A stretch of DNA of 64,000 nucleotides from assembly GCA_947650365.1 (NCBI GenBank), contig CANTAL010000022.1, positions 1,632,831-1,696,830 on the forward strand, in the 5' to 3' direction. Shown here in pieces: positions 3,461 through 57,249 of the stretch. Every line of letters starts with the position of its first letter. Positions within the stretch are counted from its first letter, which is position 1. The stretch comes from Chamaelirium japonicum (Eukaryota; Streptophyta; Magnoliopsida; Liliales; Melanthiaceae). Below the pieces are notes generated by a model. That model had not been told where the DNA came from, did not search any database, and saw only the letters and a list, made by a program, of their open reading frames with translations. Both the position numbers and the translations under genes were made by a program.

Positions 3461-5339
3461 GACATTTGGCTAGGAGATCCGATCGTTAGGTGATTTTGAA
3501 GACCTACAACCGAGCTATGAATAGCTCTAATACCACTTGATGGTTTTTACGCCCTAAGATTCCCTAAAGAGGGACTAAAACAACTCAAACAAACAAGCGA
3601 AAGCACTCAAAGAGAAAAACTACCAAACACCCTTATGCTCACACTAAAACCGAAATCACCTTTCTCAAAATCTCTTGGAATCAGACAAAATGCGCAATGA
3701 AAATTTTAACAATCAGATCTAATCTACGTGTGTGATGCAAATGTTGTGTGATGGGGTAGAAACATGCAAGGCTCTATTAAAAGCATTCAAAAAAGTGCAC
3801 ATAGAGGTTTTTTAGGTGGAAAACCACAAAATGGTAAAAAACCACCCCTAGCAAGCTCAGATGCAAACCACTCCACTACAAGCAAAAGGGTTGCAAGAAA
3901 AAGTTAAAGAGTTATCCTTGAAGACCTAACCCATTCTCACTGTGGTCTTTAGACAGTGTAATTTCTCGTTATCCTACTCCCTGTTGATTCTTCTTGCTTC
4001 TTTGTATTTCTGTTATCATCCATGGCTTCTTTTCTCACTACTATCTTATTTCAAACTAAGTAATTGATCGAAGGTAAGACGCTTCTCCCACGAAGATCGA
4101 TTTGTCTCATCTTCTAACCTTTGTTTTCTAGTCCACCATCTTCCTCGCCACAACTTCATCTACTATCAAGGAGGTTTTACCAAGGAATATGGCATCATTC
4201 GGGCATATTCCAAAGCCTATCGACATCATCCACGGGCTATTTAAAGGGCGGTATTGATTTCCTATCTTTCCCATCTTATTTTCCTCGCAGCGGTCTCTTG
4301 GTTCTGCAAGCCAGTTTGCCCGGGCGAATTTCCTATGCAGCGCGCCGCTTCCTCTCCTTCGCCGCTCCGCCTTCCATCGTTCCTTCACGTACAAACCTTG
4401 GGGATGTTATGTGGCCTGTTTGGAGCCACATCTTCAACACTATGTATAGTCTATTTTTGTATATGAGCCTCACATGAGGACATATATATTTTTTTATATA
4501 ATGGCCTATTGGCCCTAATGTGAGGAGGGATCATTCTCTTGCAAACCCTAGCCTGCATATCTTATCACGGATGGATCTCATACAGAAGAAATCAATCCAG
4601 TAACTGCAAGGAGGATGGGAAGTAAGTCCACGAGGACCACAACAATATCTTGAAAACCTACTTTTTTAGTCCAAGCCCGATCCATTCAGCCAATACTTGA
4701 CCCGGGTTGGCCAAACCGATCCGACTTGTTCGGATTCATCCCACGGATTAGAATCCGATCCTGCAGAAGCAGAATCTGATCCACATATGAGATCTGACCT
4801 ATAGGGGCAACATCTTACCCACAAATCAGTTTGGACCCACATGACAACCTGCAGACAAGTTGCTCTTCTATACTGTCTGCAATATTCGGTTTGATTTGCC
4901 TGTTCTGATTCTTTCTTTGATTTGGTTCTGAGTAGTTTGTTTACCCTACTTCTTCTGGGATCAAATGCCCTTTTCGTGTTCTGTTTGTTTGATTGCTTCT
5001 ATGATTTGAAACCTCTTTCTGAAGGATTGCTTTTTTTCTTCTCGGAACTGTACCTTTTTAGGATCTGACTTGTGTGGTATCATCCGATCTGGACTTGTGG
5101 TGTCGTGTTTGTGGTCAGATATCGAGTTTGTTACTTCTTATCTCATCCACCGGTCAAGTTCTGAAGTGCTCTACTGGCCAATTGTCATTAATTTCGGGAC
5201 CATCGAATCCCTCCTGCATTTGTCCCTCGTTAATGGACATATTAGTGGTGCACTAGCCTCTGTCTTCTTGTCGATGTCTCGTTTATATTCTATTGCTGCA
5301 TCAATATTTGGCACTACTTAAGAAATTGTTCATGGAGAG
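3461..5339. other. No gene supported; possible LTR-element remnant
   Basis: At 3519-3532 the plus strand reads agctctaataccac, resembling the complement of a methionine-tRNA primer-binding site (TGGTATCAGAGC with one change), so a minus-strand LTR element may start near 3540. The rest, including 4120-4480 and 4680-5330, has open frames without recognisable domains. No MATE exon was found here although the gene to the right needs one. Confidence 0.4.
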
Positions 5340-12894: not shown

Positions 12895-13870
12895 GATAGC
12901 ACCTGAATCTGTCTTGGACCCCAACCCATTTCAGCATTCTAGTCTTGACACCCTAAAAAACCCTCAAAATGCCCCCATTCTCTTCTACGACCTGTCACTG
13001 TCCATGTTCGACCCTTCACCTCCGTGGCCATCTCCACCCATCTAGTCCCACCTCTCTGCCCCCTCTGTCGCCCTCCTTCCTCCTCCTTCTCCTTCCCCAC
13101 GTCGGAGCCCTAAGCCAGTGGCCTCCTTTCTCTCCTCCTTCCTCCCCTTTCTTCATACTTCATCTTTCCCGCGTCGGAATCCTAAGCCACTGGCCCTCCT
13201 TCTTCTTCCTCCATCTTTTCGCCTGAACCCTAAGCCCTAAGCTGTTGGTTGGCCTTAGTTGCTGCCCACCAACATTGTGTTGGTGGCTGCCCGCCGAAGT
13301 GGGCATGGTGGAGCTGCTGGTTTCATACCCCCCCCCCCCCCCCTCCCTCATTCTTGTCTTTCTTCTTATTTCTACCTACAAACGTGTCAGTTGCTCCCGA
13401 CCGATATGGTTTTTGATTGTTCCTAACCGATATGGTGTACCACACCGTGTCGGATCCCAACTGACATGAACCACACCATGTCGGACAGGAGCAACCAATA
13501 ACATATCGGTCAGGAACGCCAACACGATGTACATATCAATATGCCTATATGCTACGAGTGCTAGTAACTTGGGTGCAAATAGCAACATCCTTCGACAACC
13601 GCTGAAATCCAATTATTTGTTTTGGTTTAGGGTGCCAACAATTTTTTGTGCAATTCCAGATGAACAATGGCATCTCTGCACCATATTCCATCCCATCACA
13701 TCACGCGGGGAAAAACTTGGGATGGGGGAGGCCCTACCTCGTAACGCCGTGGCCCATGGGGATGCCCGTCACCTGGCGCCATACGAAGTGATGCTATTTG
13801 AACATACTGCGGGACAACAACATTGACAACCCGCGGTGGTGTGGGGACATGGGCCAGTGCTTGGCGGCCC
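12895..13870. other. Pyrimidine-rich and repeat-related stretch, no gene
   Basis: 12960-13220 is C/T-rich with spurious long frames, and a run of 17 C lies at 13328-13344. 13740-13860 contains a diverged inverted copy of the start of the tandem unit that follows (gctatttgaacatactgc against gcagtatgttcaaatagc), making a head-to-head palindrome-like junction. No gene is supported. Confidence 0.5.
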
Positions 13871-16800
13871 CTGGCACGAATCCCAATGCACTAAGCGCCT
13901 CACACCACTAGTTGTCGGTGATGATGTCCTGCAGTATGTTCAAATAGCAGTACTTGGTGCCTAACCGTTGCCTTGTGAGAGGTCACCAGGATGCTCAGCG
14001 TGGTACGACGTGATTGGATGGCCCCATGTTACTACTCCGTAAGACCTCCCCATCGAAGTTGCTAGCACGGCGACAGCCTACAGACAACAACGATGGAGGA
14101 TTGACAATCATCGTGCTCACCTATGAGAAAGAATTCTACCAAAGAAAAAAAAGAGGGACTTAGTGTTAGCTTCATAACGAAGGAATCAATTCGAGATATG
14201 TCCTCCTGTGTATTGTGATAGCTCCCTCCGGAAATCCTGTCAAACCAAATAGAAAAAAAAATGATAATAATACTCTACCGAAGTTTATTGAATTTACATT
14301 TCTTATCATCAATTGAACACGAACCATTTTTTGAAAAAAAAACAATTGAAGTCATTCTATATTATCGATTTAAAATCACAAAATAATTTATTTATTTGAT
14401 ATTTTTATCAAAAAAAAAATTTGTCAACCGATCAAATATGTACTTTTTTTACATAATTATTACTCTTTATGTGCAAGATAGAATCAACTTGGTTTCGCGT
14501 AGTTAACAACATTTTTTATCACAATAAAAAATTATATTATGACCAGATGAGCAAAAATACCGCTACAATCAATCTTAAATTAAGAAATTTATCATATCAA
14601 ATTATTCCTCTTTACTAACGGATTGTTACTTTTTACCAATTGTTATTTTTTACTATAATTGTTATACTTTATATGTAGGTCTAAAATTGTTATTTAAAAA
14701 ATTATGTTATTACATGTGCGCAGCAGAAGGAGCTCACATTAGCCAAAACTAACAGATTGTTTTTCTTTACCAATTGTTACTCTTGTACTACAATTGTTAC
14801 AATTTATTTGTAGGGCTAAAATTGTCATTTTTTTTTTAATTACATGTGTGTGGCAGAAGGAGCACGTGTTAGTCAAAGTCCAACAACAGGGGCTTAACGT
14901 TAAACTCAAACTTTAAATACCCTTAACATTAAACGAAAACCTTTTTAAGGAGCTAACGTTAGTAACCCCCAAAAAATGGGTTATTAGTCTAAGTCCTCTC
15001 TAACTAACCCTCTAGTTTGATAAACCCCTTTAATTGTTTCGTAGTCCATTAAGTCCCCCCCCCCACCCACCTGGCACGAATCTCGATGCACTGAGCGCTA
15101 CTCTGCACCTCACACCACTGGCTGTCCGTGACAATGTCCTGCAGTATGTTCAAATAGTAGTACTCGGTGCTTGACCATTGCCTTGTGGGGGGTCACCACG
15201 ATGCTTAGCGTGGCACGACGTGATTGGATGTCCCCATGTTACTATATGGTAAGACCTCCCCATCGAAGTTGCTCTCACGGTGGCAACCTACAGTCAACAA
15301 CCATGGAAGATTGCCAATCATCACGTGCTCACCTATGAGAAAGAATTCTACAAAAAAAAAGAAGAGGAACTTAGTGGTAGCTTCATGACGAAGGAATCGA
15401 TTTGAGATAAGCCCCATGTGTATTGTGATAGCTCCCTCTCGAAATCCTGCCAAACCAAATAGAAAAAAAATTTGATAATAATACCCGGTCGAAGTTTATT
15501 AAATTTACATTTCTTATCATCAATTGAACACGAACCATTTTTTGCACAAAAACCAATTGAAATCATCGTAGATTATATTTAAAATGACAAAATAATTTAT
15601 TTATTTTATATTTTCATCAAAAAAAAATTGTTAACAGACCAAATACGTGCTTTTTTACATAATTGTTATTCTTTATGTGCGAGATAGAATCGATCTGCTT
15701 GGTTTCACATAGTTAATTGCATTTTTTATCACAATAAAAAATCATATTATGACCAAATGAGCAGAAATACCGCTACAATCAATCTTCAAATAAGAAATTT
15801 TATCGTATCAAATTGTTACTCTTTGCTAATGGATTGTTACTCTTTACCCATTATTACTTTTTGGGATGATTGTTACACTTTATACATAGAGCTAAAATTG
15901 TCATTTAAAAAATTACGTTATTACATGTGCGCGGCAGAAGAAGCTAGAGTTAGCCAAAATTGACAAATTGTTTCTCTTCAGTAATTGTTACTCTTTTACT
16001 ACAATTTTTACAATTTATCTGTTGGGGTAAAATTACCATTTAAATTGTTTTGTTATTATATGTGCATGGCAGAAGGAGATCGCGTTAGTCAAAGTCCAAC
16101 AATAGGGGCTTAACGTTAAGTTCAAACTTTACATACCCTTAACATTAAACGAAAACATTTTTAAGGAGCTAACATTAATAACCCCAAAAAAGATGGGTTA
16201 TTAGTCTAAGGCCTCTCTAACTAACCCTGTAGTTTGATAAACCCCTTTAATTGTTTCGTAGTCCATTAACTGTCTCCCCCCAGCCCCCCCCCCCGACACG
16301 AATCCTGATGCACTGAGTGTTGGTCTACGCCTCACACCACAGGTTGTCCGTGACAATGTCCTGCAATATGTTCAAATAGCAGTACTCGATGCCTAACCCG
16401 GCCTTGTGGGGGGGTCACCACAATGCTCAGCATGGTACGATGTAATTGGATGTCCCCACGTTACTACACGGTGGCAACCTATAGTCAACAACCATGGAAG
16501 AATGCCAATCATCACGTGCTCACCTATGAGAAAAAATTCTACCAAATAAAAGAAGAGGGACTTAGTGGTAGCTTCATGACGAAGGAATCAATTCGAGATA
16601 AGCCCTTCTGTGTATTGTGATAGCTCCTTCCCGAAATCCTGCCCAACCAAATAGAAAAAATAATAATAATAACCGGCCGAAATTTATTAAATTTATATTT
16701 TTTTTTCATCAATTGAGCACGAACCATTTTTTGTGCAAAAAACAATTAAAATCATTCTAGATTATCAATTTAAAACCACAAAATAATTTATTTATTTTAT

Positions 16801-18657
16801 ATTTTCATCAAAAAAAATTATCAACCGACCAAATATGTACTCTTTTTTTTACATAATTGTTACTTTTATGTGCAAGATAGAATCAGCTAGGTTTCGCATA
16901 GTTAATTGCATTTTTCGTCACAATAACAAATCATATTATTACCAGATTAGTAGAAATACCACTACAATCAATCTTCAACTAAGAAATTTTATCATATCAA
17001 ATTGTTACTCTTTGATAACGGATTGTTACTCTTTATCCATTGTTACTTTTTGCAATGATAGTTACACTTTACATGTAGGGCTAAAATTGTTATTTAAAAA
17101 ATTACGTTATTACATGTGCGCGACGGAAGGAGCTTGCGTTAGCCAAAACTAACAGATTGTTTCAATTCTCTGTATCAATTGTTACTCTTTTACTACAATT
17201 GTTATAATTTATCTGTAGGGGTAAAATTGTCATTTAATTTTTTTTGTTATTATATGTGCGTGGCAGAAGGAGCTCGAGTTAGTCAAAGTCCAACAACATG
17301 GGCTTAACGTTAAGCTCAAACTTTACATACCCTTAACATTAAACGAAAACCTTTTTAAGGAGCCAACGTTAATAACCCCCCAAAAAAAAGGGTTATTAGT
17401 CTAAGGCCTCTCAAACTAACCCTGTAGTTTGATAAACCCCTTTAATTGTTTCATAGTCTATTAAGTCCCCCACCCCCCCCCCCATGGCACAAATCCCGAT
17501 GCACTAAGTGTTGGTCTGCGTCTCACACCACTGGTTGTCCATGACGATGTTCTGCAGTATGTTCAAATAGCAGTACTCAGTGCCGGACCGTTGCCTTGTG
17601 GGGAATCACAACGATGCTCAGCGTGACACGATGTGATTGGATTTCCCCATATTACTACACGGAAAGGCCTCCCCATCGAAGTTGCTCTCACGGCGGCAAC
17701 CTACAGTCAACAACTATGGTAGAATTCTTTGGGAGAAAGAATTCTACCAAAGAAAAAAAGAGGGACTTAGTGGTAGCTTCATGACGAAGGAATCAATTCG
17801 AGATAAGCCCTCATGTGTATTGCGATAGCTCCCTCCCGAAATCCTGCCAAACCAAATATAAAAAAAAAATTGATAAGAATACCCGGCCAAAGCTTATTAA
17901 ATTTATATTTCTTATCATCAATTGAACACGAACCATTTTTTGCGCAAAAAAGAATTAAAATCATTCTAGATTATCGATTTAAAACCACAAAATAATTTAT
18001 TTATTTTATATTTTCATAAAAAGAAATGTCAATCGACCAAATATGTACTTTTTTTACATAATTGTTACTCTTTATGTTCGAGATAGAATCAAGTTGGTTT
18101 CGCATAGTTAATTGTGATTTTTGTCACAAAAAAATCTTATTATGACCAAATGAGCAGAAATACCGCTATAAGCAATCTACAATTAAAATAATTTATCATA
18201 TTAAATTATTACTCTTTGCTAACGGATTGTTACTTTTTGCGATGATTGGTACACCTTATATGTACGGCTAAAATTGTCATTTAAATTATTATGTTATTAG
18301 ATGTGCATGGCAGATGGAGCTCGTGTTAGCTAAAGCTAACAGATTGTTTCTCTTTACCAATTGTTACTCTTTTACTACAATTGTTACAATTTATCTATAG
18401 GAGTAAAATTACCATTTAAAATTTTTTGTTATTACCTGTGCGTGGCAGAAGGAGCTCATGTTAGTCAAATTCCATTAACAGGGGCTTAACATTAGGGTCA
18501 AACTTTACATACCCTTAACATTAAACGGAAACATTTTAAAGGAGCTAACGTTAATAACCCCCAAAAAAATGGGTTATTAGTCTAAGGCCTCTCTCATGAT
18601 AAACCCCTTTAATTGTTTCGTAGTCCATTAAGTCTCCCCCCCCCCACCCCCCCTCAC
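13871..18657 (+). repeat. Tandem array, four ~1.2 kb units
   Basis: Units begin with (ct)ggcacgaatcccgatgca at about 13871, 15071, 16293 and 17484, and each ends in 'tttaattgtttcgtagtcc' followed by a C-rich run. Unit lengths are about 1200, 1222, 1191 and 1170 bp. All units share an AT-rich centre with repeated 'attgttactctttac' phrases. Units differ by many small changes and indels, so the array is not recent. No unit has an open frame above about 110 codons and no domain was recognised. A truncated copy in inverse orientation lies at 25579-26217, so the unit also exists as a dispersed element. Confidence 0.9.
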
Positions 18658-25310: not shown

Positions 25311-25578
25311 AGAACCAACGACATTCATTTTTTGTCGATTCGGGACAAGATCCCAAAGTGTGATTCTGCTTAAAAGCAACCGATTCTGCTTTCATGGCAC
25401 TCACCCAGTGTTGACTCTGTAGAGCTGTTTTAATACTCTTTGGTCCTCCGGATCAAGTGGATGCAAAGCAGCTAGGGTATGTTGAGCTTTTGAGGCAAGT
25501 TATTTTTGGGTTGTTTCCATTTATTACTTGTGGCTTTAACTGTACTTTGGGTATCTATCTTTGATACCAGGTTATTTT

Positions 25579-26217
25579 AAAGGGGTTATTAACATTAGTT
25601 CCTTAAAAAGGTTTCGGTTTAACGTAAAGGGTATGTAAAGTTTGAACTTAACATTAAGCCCATGTGGATGGACTTTGGCTAGCACGAGCATCTTCTCCCG
25701 CGCACTTGTAATAACAAAAATTTTTAAATGGCAAATTTACCTTTACATATAAAGTGTAACAATCGCATCAAAAGAGTAACAATTTGATATGGTAAAATGC
25801 CTTAATTGTAAATTAATTGTAGTGGTATTTCTGCTCATTTGGTCACAGTGTGATTTATTTTGTGACAAAAAAATGTATTTAACTATGCGAAGCCAAGCTT
25901 ATTCTATCTCGCACATAAAGGGCAACAATTCGGTACAAAAGAGTTTACTATTTGGTTGGTTGACATAATAATTTTTTTTTTTATGAAAATATATAGAAAA
26001 AAACAATATTTTGTGGTTATAAACCGATGATAATTGTTTTTCGTGCAAGAAATGGTTCGTGTTCAATTAATGGAGGGAAATATAAATTTAATAAACTTTG
26101 GCTGGACATTATTGTCCTTTTATTTCTATTTGGTTCGGCGGAATTTCAGGAGGGGCCTATTGCAATATGGGACTTTTAGGAGGAGTTATTTCAAGTAGAG
26201 AGGTATCACCAAGCCCC
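25579..26217 (-). repeat. Inverted, truncated copy of the 1.2 kb array unit
   Basis: Reads as the reverse complement of the last ~640 bp of the units at 13871-18657: ggggttattaacattagtt at its left edge, tttggttcggcggaatttcaggagg near its right. It lacks the 'ggcacgaatcccgatgca' head. This shows that the unit moved or was copied outside the array. Confidence 0.8.
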
Positions 26218-33652: not shown

Positions 33653-33753
33653 AGCATCCCTATCAACGGCCTCACACTCTGCATTATAAACACCCGCTAG
33701 AATTACAACATCAGCAATACCAGCATCATCCTTCCTCTCTGAGCTGAAGACCT

Positions 33754-34357
33754 TGTGGGGGGAATTTCCGAGCCGCCTTGATCGAGAATCCCACCCCACA
33801 GCCTTGATTGAATTGGATTGTTTGTAGAGTTAGAGAGATGGGAGAATAGATAGAGAGAGTAAAGAGCGATGACACAAGGATTGGTGACGGAGTTCGGCCT
33901 TACGACCTACGTCTCCGGGCGAGAGGTGCCACCTGATCTTCACTATAATTTGAATATAAAGGGTTGAGCGTTCTCTCGACAGGCCGAGAGAAGCTTCGTA
34001 CAGTGGGGTTGCACGGAGCAACTAGAAGAGAACAAGGTGGGGAGAATAGAGGGCTCTGGGATCATCTCTTCCTCTGATCGAATGACCAACCCCTTTCCTG
34101 GATGCCTTGGGGGTCCTTTTATAGCGTAGGTACGTGCCCGATATGGCAGTGATGACGTGGCGCTGATGACGTGGCACTGGTTCTGGGCCTCCTTGCTGGG
34201 CCCTTATTGGGCCGTTGTTCGGGCCCAATAAGGGGTAGGGCTTGATCTGCGAGCCTCGTAGAGTGGGCCCATGTGAGCCCAGGCGGGCTTACCCATTTGG
34301 GCCGTTGCGCGGGCCCATGCTGCTCTGATCTGGTCCGGTACAATTTTTGCACCCACA
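33754..34357 (-). repeat. 3' LTR of the TR-GAG element
   Basis: 604 bp, TGTGGGGGG...CACCCACA on the plus strand. A TATA-like ctataaaagg (plus strand ccttttatag, 34116-34125) sits mid-LTR in the element's sense direction, as expected for the LTR promoter. Confidence 0.93.
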
Positions 34358-34559
34358 GTTACCCCCTCCCAGTCGGGTCAGGACACCCTGGGTCGGCTGG
34401 GATTCCAAGGTGCAAACGCTTTAGGATCCTGGCGCGGTTGGCGAGGGTTGTCGGTGCCGCGGTTCGTATTAGCAGAGCCTTCTTCCGCCGATGCCGAGAC
34501 CCTTTTTGGCGCGAGCCAAAAAGTCTCGGTTTTGCGAGGGGATGTTTCTGAAAAAACAG

Positions 34560-34832
34560 TACGTTTTCCGACCGAGTGGATACCGAGAGGGTACCGAGTG
34601 CATACCGAGTGGGTACCGAGAGCATACCGAGTGGTTACCGAGACCCTTTTGGTGCAAGCCAAAAAGTCTCGGTTTTGCATGGGGGTGTTTCCGAAAAGGC
34701 AGTGCGTTTTTCGACCGAGTGGATACCGAGAGGGTACCGAGTGCATACCGAGTGGGTACCGAGAGCATACCGAGTGGTTACCGAGAGGGTACCGAGAGCA
34801 TACCGAGTGGTTACCGAGAGGGTACCGAGACC
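34560..34832. repeat. Short tandem repeats (taccgagNg) inside the TR-GAG element
   Basis: About 25 degenerate copies of a 10-11 bp word (gtaccgagag, ataccgagtg, ttaccgagag), interrupted by a ~110 bp higher-order duplication. The frames through this block encode repeating GYRE/PSGY words and are not genes. Confidence 0.85.
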
Positions 34833-35117
34833 CGTTTGGTGAGGGAATATCTTTTCTCTTTATTCCTTCTTTGGCTTTGACTCGGATGAGAGCAAACGTC
34901 GCTCTCTCTCTCCCTTTCCTTTCTCTCTCTCTCTTTCCATTCTCTGCTTTCCATTCACGTGCGTACCCTGCTCTCTCTTTCCTTTCTTTCTTTTTTTTTT
35001 TTTTCATTCACGTGAGAGAGTCATCTCTCTCTCTCTTTCCTTTTCTTTGTATTCCATTCACGTGAGAGCATGAGAGCAGCGCATCTCTCTCTCTCTTTCT
35101 CTCCCGGGCGGCGAAAG

Positions 35118-35739
35118 ATGTCGGTGAACATTCAACAGCTCACGGAGTCGACCTTCAGCGTCACGCTCGACGGCGACGCGATCTTCACCACCGTGACGTC
35201 CTCAGGCGCTGAAGTCGAGGACTGGCTCAACGAGACCCTCCACATCCACCGCCGCCGCCTCTCTAGCCTCGTCGTCAGCCTCGACGTCGAGTGGCGCCCC
35301 AGCTACAGCCCTTCCCAGAACCCCGTCGCCGTTCCTCCAGCTCTGCGTCGGCCGCCGCTGCCTCGTCTTCCAACTCCCCTACGCTGACTACCTCCCTGCC
35401 CCGCTCTCCGACTTTGTATCCGACGAGCGCTTCACGTTCGTGGGCGTCGGGATCGACGAGGACGCCGAGAAGATCCTGGACGAGCAGGGCCTGAGCGTGG
35501 TCAACACGGTGGACCTGCGGGGTTTGGCCGCGGAGAGGATGGGCCGGCAGGAGCTGAAGCAGACGGGCCTCGCGGGGCTGGCGGTGGAGGTGATGGGGGT
35601 CCGCGTGGAGAAGCCGAGGAGGGTGACCATGAGCCGATGGGACAACGTCTGTCTGAACTGGGATCAGGTGCGCTACGCTTGCGTCGATGCTTTCCTCTCC
35701 TTCGAGATCGGGAGGAGGCTCTTCAATGGCGAGTTCTGA
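35118..35739 (+). pseudogene. Captured host gene: DEDDy 3'-5' exonuclease (WRN-exo-like), broken
   Basis: Lies inside the TR-GAG element, antisense to it. The N-terminal frame from ATG 35118 carries the exonuclease I motif SLVVSLDVEWRP (D.E). The C-terminal frame, ending at 35739, carries FTFVGVGIDEDAEKILDEQG, LAGLAVEVMG and the exonuclease III region WDQVRYACVDAFLSFEIGR (Y..D). These fit plant single-exon exonucleases of the Werner-like RNase-D superfamily, about 200-230 residues. It is nearly full length but the reading frame is broken about once. Because the family is intronless in plants, lack of introns does not show how it was captured. The parent gene should exist elsewhere in the genome. 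Confidence 0.85.
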
Positions 35740-35861
35740 AATTGAGGCAATTTGGATGTTTGTGTGTGAAATGTGAAGCAATGCTGGTTTGAATGGTAAT
35801 TAAGCGTTTCTTCTTCTGAAATTGTGATTTCTTCATGATTTCTCTTTACTGCTTCATTCTC

Positions 35862-36114
35862 AACCTCTCTTCTTCTTGCTCTTCTTGTCCGCGGACTTCT
35901 TGAGCCGCTCCTCGAGCTCAGCGGGCTTGCCCCGGGCGGCACGGTCGCCAAAGCTCCGGGGGTCGATCTTGCCCCCGAGGGACTCCGGCTCGCCGGTGGG
36001 CTCGTGGGTATCGCGGGGGCGGGAGTCGGTGGTGAGGACGAGGCTGGAGTTGGCGCGGTACTCGTACTGCTTGAATCACGCATGGGCCTCCGCGCCGCCG
36101 CCCAGATGGGCCAT
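35862..36114 (-). pseudogene. BRR2: Captured host gene piece: N-terminus of BRR2 (U5 snRNP helicase)
   Basis: Lies inside the TR-GAG element, in the element's sense direction. From a minus-strand ATG at 36112-36114 the sequence encodes MAHLGGGAEAHA, then KQYEYRANSSLVLTTDSRPR, DTHEPTGEPES and KIDPRSFGDRAARGKPAELE, then Lys-rich KKS repeats. This is the very N-terminus (about 80 residues) of the DExH-box spliceosomal helicase BRR2 (plant DExH12), a protein of over 2,000 residues. Only this first part is present and it is broken about once, so it is a gene fragment. It sits about 120 bp from the exonuclease piece, on the opposite strand, and the two have different parents. Confidence 0.85.
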
Positions 36115-36365
36115 GGCTCACGATTCTGGTCCACGACGGCCGGCACGTCGACGACCTCTCCCCCTCGGGGGCTAGGGGTCGGTACGTCGCCAGTGTCGCG
36201 GAGGACGTGAAGATGCGGGGGAAGGCTTTGCCCTGAGTGAGGAGCTTTGCGAGCCAAGTTGAGGGTATGAAAGAGTCCTTCATTGTTGTGGCGAGCGGGA
36301 TTGCGAGTTAGCTAGTGATGAGTTGATCTCTGGTTGTCTGTCCGATCGTCCCAGGGGAAGGCTTC

Positions 36366-36800
36366 AAACTCTTTCGGCCACCATGTCCTTTCGTGCGAGT
36401 GTCAGATCGATGCACATAAGGTTCCATCATGCTGGCACCAAAAAGCAGTCTGTGCGGTCGTGAGGTATCGGGCTCGTTGATGTGTTGCTTTTCCAATGTC
36501 TTCTTTGGAGAAAAAGGCCTCAATACCTCTCGACAGCCATAACTTTTCGTATGTGCGTCGGATCAACGCGTATAAGGTGCCGTTGTGTCGGCGCTGAAAA
36601 ACTAGTTAAAGTGGACTTAAAGCGTCGGGCACCTTTGCGTGTAATATTTCCAATGCATGTATTCGGAGAAAAAGACTTTGAAAACTTTCGACAGCCATAA
36701 CTTTTCATGTATGCGTCGGATGAATGCGTATAAGGTGCCGTTGTGTAGGCGCTGAAAAAAACGGTCAAAGTGGACGTGAAACATCATATACCTTGACGAG
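36366..36800. repeat. ~165 bp tandem repeat, three copies, in the TR-GAG element
   Basis: The phrase tcgacagccataacttttc...gtgcgtcggat...cgtataaggtgccgttgtgt recurs with about 165 bp spacing (36532, 36697), with a more diverged copy near 36366. Confidence 0.75.
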
Positions 36801-37144
36801 TAACTTTTCTGGTATTCACCTTTATAGAGAGATGACTCTTAAGAACGCGCCGGCCAGGTTTTAGGCTAGCGTCTTAAAGATGTCTCGGCACGCTGTAACT
36901 CATCCGCTTTGTCCGACACCCAACTGCACCTAGTTACTGTGTTCACTAGGGACTGCAGTCGGGCCCCAGTGATGACGCGATGGTTACCGCGTGCTCACCC
37001 CTTATGAGAAAGGGGATATTTATTTATTTTTTTTTTGTGTGAAGTTTGTACAAACAAATCAATAGGGTTGGATGAGATGCTATCCAACCGACCCAATGGA
37101 AGATTACTCTTCGTCCCTGAATAATCATTGTGTGTGGATGACAC

Positions 37145-37805
37145 CGAGCACCCCCCCTCTCGGTTTTCTGACGAAACCGAGGGGTGGGCTGTTGTTGATG
37201 TCGAACACCCACCCTCTCGGTTTTCTGACGAAACCGAGAGGTGGACTATTGTCGATGCCGAACACCCCGACCCTCTTGGTTTTTTTTTTTTTTTGATGAA
37301 ACCGAGAGGTGGACTGTTGTTAGTGCCGACACCCCCTCCCCACTCGGTTTTTGTGCGAAACCAAGGGGGGGCTGCTTGTTGATGCCGACACCCACCCCCT
37401 CTCGGTTTTCTGACGAAACCGAGGGGTGTGCTGCTGATGTGCTGTCCCCCCTCCCCATTCGATTTTTGTGCGAGACCGAGGGGGGGCTACTTGCTGATGC
37501 CGACACACACCCCCTCTCGATTTTCTGACGAAACCGAGGGGTGTGCTGCTGATGTGCCGTCACCCCCTCCCCACTCGGTTTTTATGCGAAACCGAGGGGG
37601 GGCTACTTGTTGATGTTGACACACACCCCCTCTCGGTTTTCTAACGAAACCGAGGGGTGTGCTGCTGATGGTGTGTCGTCACCCCTTTCCCACTCGGTTT
37701 TCTAACGAAACCGAGGGGTGTGCTGCTGATGGTGTGTCGTCACCCCTTCCCCACTCGGTTTTTGTGCGAAACCGAGGGGGGGCTGCTTGTTGATGCCGAC
37801 ACCCC
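37145..37805. repeat. Tandem repeats of ctcggttttctgacgaaaccgag, in the TR-GAG element
   Basis: About twelve copies of a ~50-60 bp unit, each containing a self-complementary core ctcggtttt...gaaaccgag and alternating two variants ('ggtgtgctgctgatg' and 'ggggctgcttgttgatg'). Each unit can form a small stem. Long frames here are composition artefacts. Confidence 0.85.
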
Positions 37806-38299
37806 ATTATTGGGGCTGCTAGAAAAGGCCAAAAAGTGTCGGTATTGAAAATAGTGTATTTTTCGAATTTCAGCCCCATTTGAAACCGACACTTTTTCGG
37901 TGAAACATTGGTGCGCGGGGATGTCGGCGAGGGACAATGCTATATTCGAGGGGGTTTCTTAGAGATAATCTGCTAGGATGACGCCGCATGATGGCCAGCC
38001 GGTCTTCACCCAATGTATTACCGCACCTGGTTACTGTATTCACCAGGTACTACGGTCACGTGAGGGTGTTGACTTGGCCAGGATCAAGGAAGCACAATTT
38101 TATCCCGTGTTACCCACCGTCGACTGCACCAGTGTGGAGACACGTACTGACAGAGTCAGACCAACCACCCCCTGACCGGTTTGGAACCGTTAGTCGTCGA
38201 AAAAAGGTGATGGCCAGTGACAATCTGATGCTTGGACCTAGGTGACAAGACTAAGCTTGGACTTTTGATCGAATGCCAATACGTCGGCGACGACGTCTC

Positions 38300-39650
38300 G
38301 GACTTTGTCTTCGAATGCCAAGGGCTGGGCCTTGGGCTTGTAGAGTGCTAAGGCGTTGGTCGCCTCGAACTTTGTCTTCAAGTGCCAAGGGCTGGGCCTT
38401 GGGCTTGTAGAGTGCCGAGGCATTGGTAACCTCGGACTTTGTCTTCGAGTGCCAAGGATGCCTCCTTGAACTTGGTGCATGTCAAAGCGGCGACATCTGC
38501 CTTGGACTTATTCTTATTGCCTCGGATAAATATAGTTGATAGTTTAGCTTGACCTGGATTGTCAGGAGCATTTTTATCTGACTTTTGCCTTGAAAGGGCG
38601 TAGCCGAATTGCCTTCGAGTTTCCGACTTGAATGGGCGGAATCGTAGGTCTTTGGTTGACCTGGGTTACCAGGAGCTTTTTTATCAGACTTTCGCCTTGA
38701 AAGGGCGTAGCCGAATTGCCTTCGAACTTCCGACTTGAATGGGCGGAATCGAAGGTCTTTGGTTGACCTGGGTTTCCAGGAGCATTTTTATCGGACTTTT
38801 GCCTTGAAAGGGCACAGCCGAATTGCCTTCGAGCTTCCAACTTGAATGGGCGGAATCGAAGGTCTTTGGTTGACCTGGGTTGCCAGGAGCCTTTTTATCG
38901 GACTTTAGCCTCGAGAGGGCGTAGCCGAATTGCCTTCGAGCTTCCGACTTGAATGGGCGGAATCGAAGGTCTTTGGTTGACCTGGGTTGCCAGGAGCCTT
39001 TTTATCGGACTTTAGCCTCGAGAGGGCGTAGCCGAATTGCCTTCGAGCTTCCGACTTGAATGGGCGAAATCGAAGGTCTTTGGTTGACCTGGGTTGCCAG
39101 GAGCCTTTTATCGGACTTTAGCCTCGAGAGGGCATAGCCGGATTGCCTTCGAGCTTCCAACTTGAATGGGTGGAATTGAAGGTCTTTGGTTGACCTGGGT
39201 TGCCAGGAGCCTCTTTATCGGACTTTAGCCTTGAGAGGGCGTAGCCGAATTGCCTTCGAGCTTCCGACTTGAATGGGCGGAATCGAAGGTCTTTGGTTGA
39301 CCTGGGTTGCCAGGAGCCTTTTTATCGGACTTTAGCCTCGAGAGGGCGTAGCCGAATTGCCCTCGAGCTTCCGACTTGAACGGGCAGAATCGAAGGTCTT
39401 TGGTTGACCTGGATTGCCAGGAGCCTTTTATCGGACTTTAGCCTCGAGAGGGCGTAGCCGAATTGCCTTCGAGCTTCCGACTTGAATGGGCGGAATCAAA
39501 GGTCTTTGGTTGACCTGGGTTGCCAGGAGCCTTTTTATCAGACTTTTGCCTTGAAAGGGCGTAGCCGAATTGCCTTCGAGCTTCCGACTTGTATGGGTGG
39601 AATCGAAGGTCTTTGGTTGACCTGGGTTGCCAGGAGCCTTTTGTTTTATG
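38300..39650. repeat. 107 bp tandem repeat, about 10 copies, in the TR-GAG element
   Basis: The phrase ggtctttggttgacctgggt recurs at about 38647, 38754, 38861, 38968 and onward to 39610, with 105-107 bp spacing. Before it (38290-38480) lies a ~77 bp repeat with 'gccaagggctgggccttgg'. Copies are about 90-97% alike by eye, so the array is recent. Confidence 0.9.
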
Positions 39651-39823
39651 CCTTAACATGGTAGAATCGAACTTCGGGAGATTTGATTTTGAGAAAAAAG
39701 AGATACTTTATTGATACAACAAAGTAGCGGTTACACTTTTTCAGAAGTTGCCCAACGGACGTTACGATTATGCATCCATGTATTACATTGACTTTTTTTT
39801 TTTATGCACTGCTGCAGCCTCTC

Positions 39824-41661
39824 CTACTCTCGACCTGGTTCCTTATTAGCGAGATAGCCATCGAGCCACCCTTCTTGGATCAGGTCTTCGATGTGATGAT
39901 TTAGCTTCCGACATGTAGAGGTTGGGTGGCCATGGCTGCGATGAAACTCACAGTAGGCTGTCGTATCTCCCGCCTGGTCGGAATTTGGAGGGAGAGACTG
40001 TGGCCACTTGCAAAAGGGCTCGTTCTGTAAGTAGGCGAAGATGTCTTCAATGGAGGTGTTCAGCTCAGTGAACACCCTTTGCTCCCTTGGAGTTCGCCTC
40101 TTTTCTGCTGGAGGGGCTTTCGGATCTTCATTGTACCTTTTGGCCTGGGCCTTTTGGTCGGACGCAGCATGGGCAGACTTTTTGTAGCGTGCTTCATTAG
40201 GAGCTTCATCATCTTTCTTATGTCGGGAGTCACGATACTCGCGGGGCTCGCGTAGTCTTTTGGCCTGCTGATTGTCTTCCACCTCTATCTCCCGCTGTAC
40301 GCGCTTGAACATTGCCTCTAAGGTACTGGGAGGGTATCGGATGAAGTCGGTGTAGACGTGGAGCTCTGGCCGGATAGCATTCTGGAATGCCAGCATGATG
40401 GCCTCCTCATTCTGGGACCGACCGATGAGCTCAGAGTGCTCATTACGAAACCTCATCGTGAAGCTCCTTAGAGACTCATCGGAGCCCATCTTCAGCCGGT
40501 AGAGTGTATCCAGCTTCTTTTCCGGCTTTAAGTTTAGCCGATAATGGTCCATGAAAAGTTCAGCCAACTCTTTGAATGTGGCCACCGTACCGGTAGGCCG
40601 CGTGTGGTACCAGTCGAGGGCAGGTCCCTCGAGACTTCCCGCGAATATACGACAAAGGATATGATTCTCATATTCATGCGGCGTCAGGGCCTGCTTGTAG
40701 GTTAGGATATGGAGAGCAGGGTCTCCCTGGATGCAGTTGAACTTTGGTAGGTTCGGTGTCGCCAGCCCATAGGAAATGGTGTTGCAAGAACCTTGGGATG
40801 CAGTGGCCCCACCGAGGTGATTAGTTGCCTACGGTCTTGATGGCGGCGTCCCACGTTGGCAGTATGCCTTAGTCGATTGAGCAGCTCGCGAGCATCTGTT
40901 GCTTTCGTGTGCGAAGGGATAGAACATCCAGTGGACCCTATTGACTGAGGAGATCCTTCTCGGCGATAGCTTAGCGCACCGTCGACGTTGAGGCGATCCC
41001 ACACCGTTTGCCTTGGTGCTTGTGTGGATACTTGACGCCTCTCGATACGCGGCACATATGGTTCTTCAAGATGATGACTCGCAGCTGGGTGAGTCTTCAG
41101 TGGGCCTTCAGTCGCAGCGGGAGAGTTGAGGATCATAACCCCCGCCCTCTCAGCTGCTTTCTTCAAGGAGTCTCTCTCTTGTTCGAGGGCCGCATTCTTC
41201 TTGATGAGATTTAACAGCTGGAAGTCAGCAGCCGAGATCTCATATGTAGCCTGAGGCTCGTTCCCTTGAATAGCAGGTTCTTTGCCAGACCGACGCCTCG
41301 GGGATGATGGGTCTCGCCGATCGCTGTGCCCTTCTGGAAGGCTACCTTGCGGCCCCAGTCGTTCCCGAACATTTCTTCGGTTGGTTGCAACCGAGACTTC
41401 TTGTTCTTCTTCGATCAGCATATCGTTAGTTCGTTTAGCACCCGCCTTTGGTGGGTTGGTACTGGCCTTCACCATCGAGCGTGTTGATGTCGGCGTGATG
41501 AAGGCGTTGAGGTTGACTTGGAGGAGGACTTGTGGCTCGTCACCACAAGTTGAATAGGAGTCGGTAGAGGTGTGGGTAAGACCTCTAACGATATCCCACA
41601 GACGGCGCCAAAGATTGTGGGGGGAATTTCCGAGCCGCCTTGATCGAGAATCCCACCCCAC
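39824..41661 (-). CDS. gag region of the TR-GAG element
   Basis: Two minus-strand frames, 40702-41661 and 39824-40585. The second has the Retrotrans_gag fold: FKELAELFMDHYRLNLKP, KKLDTLYRLKMGSDESLRSF, RPELHVYTDFIRYPPSTLEA, and near the end YCEFHRSHGHPTSTCRKL followed by IEDLIQEGWLDGYL, all typical of Ty3/gypsy gag of plants. The N-terminal frame is Gln/Arg/Pro-rich with LIKKNAALEQERDSLKKAA, a probable coiled coil. It is a structural capsid protein for element particles. The region is interrupted about once. No protease, RT or integrase follows. Confidence 0.85.
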
Positions 41662-42219
41662 AGCCTTGATTGAATTGGATTGTTTGTAGAGTTAGAGAGA
41701 TGGGAGAATAGATAGAGAGAGTAAAGAGCGATGACACAAGGATTGGTGACGGAGTTCGGCCTTACGACCTACGTCTCCGGGCGAGAGGTGCCACCTGATC
41801 TTCACTATAATTTGAATATAAAGGGTTGAGCGTTCTCTCGACAGGCCGAGAGAAGCTTCGTACAGTGGGGTTGCACGGAGCAACTATAAGAGAACAAGGT
41901 GGGGAGAATAGAGGGCTCTGGGATCCTCTCTTCCTCTGATCGAATGACCAACCCCTTTCCTGGATGCCTTGGGGGTCCTTTTATAGCGTAGGTACGTGCC
42001 CGATATGACAGTGATGACGTGGCGCTGATGACGTGGCACTGGTTCTGGGCCTCCTTGCTGGGCCCTTATTGGGCCGTTGTTCGGGCCCAATAAGGGGTAG
42101 GGCTTGATCTGCGAGCCTCGTAGAGTGGGCCCATGTGAGCCCAGGCGGGCTTACCCATTTGGGCCGTTGCGCGGGCCCATGCTGCTCTGATCTGGTCCGG
42201 TACAATTTTTGCACCCACA
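41616..42219 (-). repeat. 5' LTR of the TR-GAG element
   Basis: 604 bp, same length as the 3' LTR and differing from it at three positions by eye. It is preceded (plus strand) by the complement of the primer-binding site at 41595-41612 and followed by the GACCT duplication at 42220-42224. Confidence 0.93.
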
Positions 42220-42635
42220 GACCTCTCCACCAGGAGAACGGCTTCTACCACATGACCCCCATCACATGTCTCTCTTTGCACCACAATATTAGCACAAGCC
42301 AAATCTTTGGAATCTCTGTCAGCAGCATGACACTCTTCAATATCATCTCCCACTCTCTTTTAAGCAGCATTACACTCTACATCTATAGCACCATTGTGTC
42401 AACATCAGTATCACCAGCTGTCATATCACCAACATCAACATCACCAACTATCACAGGACCATCACCAGTAGCACCATCATCAGCTACAACAATAGCAGCC
42501 TCAACATTAGCATCACCAGCATCAGCATTAGTATCAGTTTCATTAGCATCATCCACAACATTGGCCTTAGCATTATCAGCACCCACTATAATTATCACAT
42601 CAACAGCAACATCATCAACATTAGCTCTTTGGTAA

Positions 42636-44230: not shown

Positions 44231-44952
44231 TTATGGAATCTGTAGCGGTGCACGGTTTTAAAATGTATCTTCTATGTTTGAGAGGAAAAATTATATAAGT
44301 AGCTCATGATCTCCTTCTCTCCAAACAATATGGGGCTAACTCGTGGCTTTGGATACCTCATATCACCTTATCCATCTTTACATCACAGTTTCAGGAGTCT
44401 TGGCTATTGGCTATTGGATCTTGGTCGTCACAATGATGGTTACTTCACCTGAAAAGAATTGTTGTATATGTTCACCGTTGCACATGCTGAATGTGCCCTC
44501 GTCGAGTGTGTCCTGCCGTCGAAGGCGACATCTGCAACGCCGATAGGTAGTGGTGTTCTCACCTTGCCTCACTGATTGGTTCTTGAAAGAACAGCACTTG
44601 ACAACTATCTCTATGTCGCTAGACCCAACATACGAGGAAGTTCGGTGGTCGATAGTATTGCCACCCCTGTCGAAAGTGTTTTTCATCCGAATGTGGATGC
44701 CGCGATCAAAAATGGATGGATTCACTGAATATGCACTGAATATAAGCCTTGTAGAACGAATTTTGACGCATCCATCGAAGATAGACGCCACCGTCGAATG
44801 TGTTTGGCCACCGCATTTAGATCTGGTGGGCGGCATATCTGGTGCCACTTTTTCAGAACTCCCCTTCATTTCTCGTGTTCGTGCATTTTGGTTCGACCGC
44901 CTCTTTCTCAGTCCTTGAATCTCTCTCTCTCTCTATCTCTCTCCCGAAAGCC
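44231..44952 (+). promoter_or_regulatory. Upstream region and 5' leader of adenylosuccinate synthetase
   Basis: About 700 bp between the copia fossil and the start codon. A CT-rich run (ctctctctctctctatctctctccc, 44922-44945) ends 7 bp before the ATG, typical of plant leaders. No TATA box was identified with confidence. Confidence 0.45.

Positions 44953-57249
<12,297 letters not shown>

Follow-up and report, generated by a model that had tools for sequence, protein, structure and literature searches.

Pieces of two host genes in a gag-encoding LTR retrotransposon of Chamaelirium japonicum, and evidence for a slot that holds other genes in related copies

An LTR element with pieces of two host genes

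A stretch of 64,000 nucleotides from Chamaelirium japonicum (contig CANTAL010000022.1, positions 1,632,831 to 1,696,830; hereafter the window) was analysed. A complete long terminal repeat (LTR) retrotransposon of 8,466 bp was found at 33754-42219, read on the minus strand, carrying pieces of two unrelated host genes, namely a WEX-type DEDDy 3′-5′ exonuclease gene (WEX) and the beginning of BRR2 (Table 1). The preliminary description had proposed a sharply bounded, gag-only element containing both genes, with the exonuclease antisense and BRR2 sense, and all of this was confirmed (604-bp LTRs with 3 differences, target site duplication (TSD) GACCT, primer-binding site (PBS), polypurine tract (PPT), gag, no pol domain found, and both donors located in the same genome). 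The evidence below strongly favors the reading that the element is young and belongs to a gag-encoding, apparently non-autonomous LTR family of high copy number, in which pieces of host genes are taken up again and again at one slot and then spread.

Table 1. Features of the element in the window (positions of the 64,000-nucleotide stretch)
Feature	Position	Strand	Remarks
TSD, left	33749-33753		GACCT
3′ LTR	33754-34357	-	604 bp
PPT-like polypurine tract	34359-34370	-	GGGAGGGGGTAA (minus-strand reading), just inside the left (3′) LTR
Tandem repeats, 143 bp and 11/22/33 bp	34494-34830		ACCGAG type; family backbone, found in further copies too
Pyrimidine-rich stretch	34880-35083		left edge of the cargo slot
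Captured WEX gene	35084-35877	+	antisense to the element; includes 34 bp ahead of the ORF and 138 bp beyond its stop
Exonuclease open reading frame (ORF)	35118-35739	+	one frameshift in the window copy
Microhomology at the WEX/BRR2 junction	35868-35877		TCTTCTTCTT, 10 bp, common to both donors; overlap of the donor alignments
Captured BRR2 exon-1 piece	35868-36131	-	sense to the element; 17 nt upstream of the ATG and 247 nt coding
GC-rich segment between BRR2 and backbone	36132-36199		68 bp; common to BRR2-only copies, unmatched in WEX-only copies
Backbone at the right edge of the cargo slot	36200-36347		common to WEX-only copies, partly to the O-methyltransferase copy
Repeats of about 156 bp	36348-36809		family backbone
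Tandem repeats, 58/115 bp	37144-37810
Tandem repeats, 67 bp and 107 bp	38294-39642
gag	39824-41613	-	two overlapping frames (39824-40828, 40705-41613), broken in the window copy
PBS-like putative primer-binding site	41595-41610	-	TGGCGCCGTCTGTGGG, just inside the right (5′) LTR
5′ LTR	41616-42219	-	604 bp
TSD, right	42220-42224		GACCT

The two LTRs, of the TG..CA type, differ by 3 substitutions and no gaps over 604 bp, which corresponds to an age of about 0.19 My at the grass rate of 1.3e-8 substitutions per site per year. Paired LTRs, a 5-bp TSD, PBS and PPT together make up an LTR retrotransposon. The gag frame at 39824-40828(-) matched PF03732 (E = 2.7e-8), and judged by this gag the element is probably of Ty3/gypsy type. 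Pfam detected no pol domain in six frames of 36312-39823, where the sole row was a sub-threshold DUF267 (E = 0.014), or in seven further frames, where it was a sub-threshold ADAMTS_CR_3 (E = 0.17); no reverse transcriptase was found in the window copy frames tested. The element thus encodes GAG only, with no reverse transcriptase, RNase H or integrase in the frames scanned, as TR-GAG elements do. No match to TRP28 (PF04195) in antisense was obtained in either set of frames, and no relatives were found in IMG/VR by gag or by LTR 30-mer. The long region before the 3′ LTR with its tandem arrays is of the Retand/Tat kind (compared with PMC11963269). The cargo had first been described as lying between the tandem repeats and the PPT; tandem arrays in fact flank it on both sides, and those at 34494-34830 lie between the cargo and the PPT.

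When the exonuclease was read with an X at the frame break, it matched PF01612 (E = 3.9e-16) and the WRN exonuclease in the PDB (E = 2.6e-17). The downstream piece by itself still matched Pfam (E = 2.3e-10), and the first piece by itself matched neither Pfam nor PDB. Its acidic positions and a Tyr, which we take to be the catalytic motifs, align with WRN. The BRR2 N-terminus at 36114-35862(-) matched human U5-200K in the PDB (E = 3e-9); no Pfam model matched this piece, which carries one in-frame stop in the window copy. The GC-rich 68 bp at 36132-36199 are possibly a further captured piece. A long BRR2 5′ untranslated region upstream of the captured ATG was considered and rejected, because the donor match ends 17 nt before the ATG and the sequence from 36200 onward is backbone. 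Within a repeat of about 50 bp just upstream of the WEX start, the motif TTCACGTG is present at 34954, 35007 and 35057, and these are all of its plus-strand occurrences in the window.

The donors were searched for with the DNA of 35118-36114 against the genome of the window itself (1,518,659,071 bases, 3253 contigs), yielding 27 match rows. The parent loci, for which a search had been suggested, were present at 97-98% identity. The WEX donor (L036, C6:85159627-85160385) showed 98.1% identity over 794 bp to window 35084-35877, and its ORF of 206 aa is intact; other parts of the element of at least 60 bp were absent from the 9.9 kb read there. The BRR2 donor (L018 on C4, positions 4857-5120) showed 97.3% identity over 264 bp to window 36131-35868, and its frame runs far beyond the captured stretch. 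A more distant WEX relative (72%) was seen in L023. Both host loci are therefore identifiable outside the element, as is one for the O-methyltransferase of another copy (L043, see below). The donor alignments extend the cargo beyond 35118-35739 and 35862-36114, the limits given at first; the identities of the pieces stood, the limits did not. The gap of about 120 bp described between them is the WEX 3′ flank, and the host-derived pieces overlap by 10 bp, so that the join sits in sequence that both donors have. This kind of join suggests that microhomology guided either a strand switch or end joining.

Copies of the cargo and other host genes in the same slot

WEX and BRR2 were found together at nine places (the window and L028-L035). 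A secondary insertion confined to the window copy, the alternative set against the element-borne cargo beforehand, was not seen: the cargo at the other eight places is nested in the same type of element, and no TSD-flanked secondary insertion around it was found in the stretches scanned. Two of these places, L029 (C120) and L030 (C86), lie on small contigs with the same insertion flanks and TSD TAATC and are probably haplotigs or a duplicated assembly stretch. Since they look like a single insertion, WEX and BRR2 together were counted as 8 insertions, 7 of them besides that of the window. A perfect 5-bp TSD was present in six of the eight; none was seen at L032, and one LTR of L033 was cut by the fetched stretch. 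The LTR distances were 0.0033-0.0217, corresponding to about 0.13-0.84 My at the same rate, with the L033 value based on 309 aligned bases and part of the values slightly overestimated, as the alignments took in a few bases of flank.

WEX without BRR2 occurred at nine places (L009-L017) and in a deleted remnant (L022). In this WEX-only lineage the ATG has become ATA and the last 19 bp of the ORF are lost, yet it has spread to nine places. A segment of about 313 bp in these copies had no Pfam match and was assigned to the backbone, because part of it is common to the O-methyltransferase copy. BRR2 without WEX occurred at three places (L019-L021), where the piece covers 730 bp of the donor, with an internal gap in L019. 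All 12 element copies of BRR2 have the same 3 differences from the donor, and the 18 WEX copies retaining position 300 all have A there, unlike the donor (L022 lacks that position). These common differences fit one capture per gene, or an older allele of the donor.

Searching the genome with the LTR gave 40 scored matches listed among 3467 first-look candidates, the latter figure not being a copy count; all 40 were at 96-100% identity. Among those listed, nine LTR pairs besides that of the window were recognized, and the slots of seven of the nine, chosen by LTR only, were read (six of 2.1-2.2 kb, L037-L042, and one of 1.1 kb, L044). Other host genes were present in four of the seven, all sense to the element. 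The slot of L037 contained ribosomal protein S2 (uS5; PDB E = 2.7e-67, Pfam E = 5.1e-17) and a second piece (L037:1262-1498) without a Pfam match, which we assume to be KH-domain-like. L040 contained a subtilase (PF00082, E = 6.8e-18) and, as second gene, an NF-X1-like zinc finger (E = 1.9e-4; 21.8 bits, below the cutoff of 22.7). L041 contained an O-methyltransferase (PF08100, E = 1.4e-18; PF00891, E = 8.3e-9), and L042 contained FAR1 (PF03101, E = 2e-7). Thus, two of the four gene-bearing slots hold pieces of two donors.

These cargoes also recur as a whole. With the query copies included, and with places counted by DNA match of the cargo itself, S2 was found at at least 12, the methyltransferase at at least 11, subtilase with NF-X1 at at least 3 and FAR1 at at least 3 places. 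Two of the 11 methyltransferase places (C11:22636541 and C4:75203956) are about 950 bp from a listed LTR match. Donor-like places of the O-methyltransferase form a pair on C6, and the one that was read (L043) showed 93.2% identity, with a frame that continues past the cargo. By match, donor-like places with part of the cargo only were seen on C1 (subtilase), on C10 (NF-X1) and as a pair on C8 (FAR1); those of S2 lie on C34, C5 and C1, and that of the second L037 piece on C11, there in swapped order. In the same LTR search, a pair of LTRs was found 13.9 kb apart (C4:21984745-21998643), which may represent an autonomous relative or a nested insertion.

Route of capture and fate of the cargo

The slot lies between the tandem-repeat region and the 3′ LTR. 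In the order of events that we propose, the BRR2 piece would have been captured first, in the longer version that survives in three copies. WEX DNA would next have been joined to it at TCTTCTTCTT, with WEX in inverted orientation, leaving 264 bp of BRR2, and the chimera would then have transposed, with a later lineage losing BRR2. As for the capture itself, host RNA may have been packaged along with that of the element, and its reverse transcription may have involved strand switches guided by microhomology, the reverse transcriptase and integrase presumably coming in trans. In one case, that of the methyltransferase, a TATATC box in the donor precedes the beginning of the cargo by 34 nt, so that the cargo begins near a likely transcription start, as would be expected if reverse transcriptase had reached the 5′ end of an mRNA and then switched back. 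For switching at the RNA level as the mode of capture, the chances appear about even.

The main competitor places the entry at the DNA level: repair of a double-strand break, or a gene-carrying DNA transposon or Helitron, would have put WEX and BRR2 into a progenitor, which then transposed. The joining of an antisense WEX to BRR2 at a 10-bp microhomology, as in end joining, is consistent with this, as are the statements in a review and a subsequent survey that transduced genes lie in sense orientation as a rule (PMC7264820, PMC11963269). However, different genes occupy the same slot in different copies, and four of four of those are sense. Random genomic fragments should also include introns and intergenic DNA, whereas the matches to donors or donor-like places are continuous, with no intron within. 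A nested DNA transposon or Helitron in particular was rejected, because the stretches scanned showed neither a terminal inverted repeat pair flanked by a TSD nor a Helitron-like 3′ end. DNA-level entry is a plausible though lesser possibility.

Several observations count against repeated capture through RNA in a standing slot. Three of the seven slots (L038, L039 and L044) had no clear gene, L038 and L044 being judged by eye on their frames rather than by Pfam, and the seven form a small sample taken from the LTRs nearest to that of the window. The sites common to all copies could reflect an older donor allele instead of changes after capture. At WEX position 431, 17 of 18 copies differ from the donor and L033 does not, and L035, which has both genes, shares a 12-bp deletion with all WEX-only copies. 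This deletion suggests that the WEX-only lineage derived from elements with WEX and BRR2, or that copies recombined; taken together with position 431, it makes recombination between copies likely and the order given above tentative. No captured piece was seen to span a donor intron, and no poly(A) trace was found at the WEX end. The antisense WEX is not produced by simple first-strand copying of WEX mRNA; its orientation speaks for a switch during second-strand synthesis, an antisense transcript or DNA repair. Finally, the cargo is bracketed by a perfect 14-bp inverted repeat, AGAGTCATCTCTCT (35017-35030 and 36826-36839), as DNA-level entry might leave; this length was reached in 0 of 200 dinucleotide shuffles, and the DNA there is CT-rich and without a TSD.

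Selection was assessed for both the WEX cargo and gag. For WEX, the distinct substitutions separating the copies from the donor were set against random placements of these changes in the same base context. In copies with both genes, 28 of 45 were nonsynonymous (one of them a stop) versus 28.1 expected, and in WEX-only copies including L022, 29 of 49 versus 31.3 expected. Pooled, the copies gave 52 of 85 versus 54.3 expected, a test of modest power, and 48 of the 85 changes were at CpG sites, as expected for methylated DNA. For gag, the 3′ frame of six other copies was compared with the window copy in coarser base contexts (CpG separate, CHG not). Here only 72 of 143 changes were nonsynonymous versus 99.9 expected, and 0 of 2000 simulations were as low. 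As far as this sample can tell, gag is kept by selection and WEX is not, indicating that WEX is passive cargo in a gag-conserving family.

This bears on two roles that the cargo might have. It could mainly be a source of small RNAs, with element transcripts antisense to WEX mRNA silencing or tuning the donor genes: 794 bp at 98.1% identity to the donor lie antisense within the element transcript, and maize elements with captured sequence are described as reservoirs of siRNAs against donor genes (PMC13317346). Since WEX changes neutrally, no selected role is visible, and we regard this explanation as unlikely. The exonuclease could also be a working antisense accessory gene retained for helping the element, since its presumably catalytic acidic and Tyr positions align with WRN. 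Among the nine copies with both genes, L032 and L033 have the 206-aa frame of the donor and L034 an open 202 aa. The Retand lineage commonly has antisense ORFs (PMC11963269), and in bdelloid rotifers LTR elements have a DEDDy exonuclease gene located after the coding region and ahead of the 3′ LTR (PMC5408684); the rotifer ORF3s, however, are closer to each other than to cellular genes, whereas here a recent, neutral copy of a plant gene was found. The window copy and L028-L031 have the same WEX frameshift, the shifted frame being open in L028-L031 and interrupted by a stop in the window copy. In L035 the frame stops after 6 codons. The WEX-only copies all lack the ATG and, except for L022, which lacks more, the last 19 bp. 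With a neutral pattern in both groups of copies and gag, by contrast, under selection, a selected accessory gene is unsupported and highly improbable. A single chance double capture without wider meaning can hardly be maintained either: gene capture by LTR elements is documented in maize, rice and sorghum (PMC2774510, PMC3726574) and three of the seven other slots lack a clear gene, but four hold other genes, two of them pieces of two donors.

We prefer the reading of a family with repeated capture, and a broader form of it is somewhat favored: a 'Pack-LTR' family, that is, a high-copy gag-only lineage whose variable 3′ region is a standing capture slot and which has shuffled fragments from many host genes, frequently with two in the same element and oriented either way.

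Relation to known elements and other features of the window

Maize Bs1, which we take to be a low-copy element with one cargo set, differs from the family described here, in which copies are numerous and the one slot holds any of several cargo sets, with one gene antisense. The likeness is that one LTR element carries pieces of several host genes (three in Bs1) and not full ORFs (PMC13317346). A survey of maize B73 reported 425 LTR elements with gene fragments, from at least 189 captures in 81 families (PMC2774510). Host gene fragments lie inside intact LTR elements there as here; under the conditions of that survey, no element had fragments of more than one standard nuclear gene, whereas two donors in one element are directly shown here. 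In rice and sorghum, 672 and 1343 captured genes in LTR elements were reported (PMC3726574).

TR-GAG elements as defined by Inpactor (PMC6022998) share the GAG domain only, with LTRs, TSD, PBS and PPT. The window element differs in bearing host cargo and, at 8,466 bp, exceeds their third quartile of 8,054 bp in PlantLTRdb (PMC10025401). The likeness to Retand/Tat Ty3/gypsy elements is an extended stretch ahead of the 3′ LTR that contains tandem repeats as well as coding sequence in antisense (PMC11963269, PMC7264820). In those elements the antisense sequence is mostly TRP28, without a known host counterpart, whereas here it is a host gene 98% identical to its donor. Serial capture of host genes and chimeras of several donors are known from Pack-MULEs, Helitrons and wheat CACTA elements, the last including a putative 3′-5′ exonuclease gene in ten copies (PMC4290129). 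Those are DNA transposons, whereas the element here has LTRs, TSD, PBS, PPT and gag.

Gene capture by LTR elements is therefore already known, and what is new is one LTR family with a recurrently refilled slot and one gene antisense; no description of such a slot was found in the literature searched, which leaves most subscription papers outside. In plants, DNA transposons (Pack-MULEs, Helitrons, CACTA) receive most of the credit for gene shuffling, and LTR captures have been described mostly as single sense gene pieces. With copies that can be dated, donors that are identified, a junction resolved to the base and a single refilled slot, this recent LTR family allows the capture mechanism and its effect on donor genes to be tested directly. 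In addition, it suggests concretely how host genes could give rise to antisense extra ORFs, for which PMC7264820 and PMC11963269 leave the origin open. If the 'Pack-LTR' interpretation is true, antisense captures would show how such ORFs of the Retand type can begin.

Two other features of the window were recorded. An adenylosuccinate synthetase gene is represented by two frames, 44821-45417 and 55768-56526, with about 10 kb between them; the former lies about 2.6 kb away from the element. The frames are about equally close to PDB 1dj2 and 1dj3, presumably the Arabidopsis and wheat enzymes. A tandem array at 13868-18653 consists of units of about 1.2 kb that are 82-84% alike, with diverged inverted relatives at 25574-26167.

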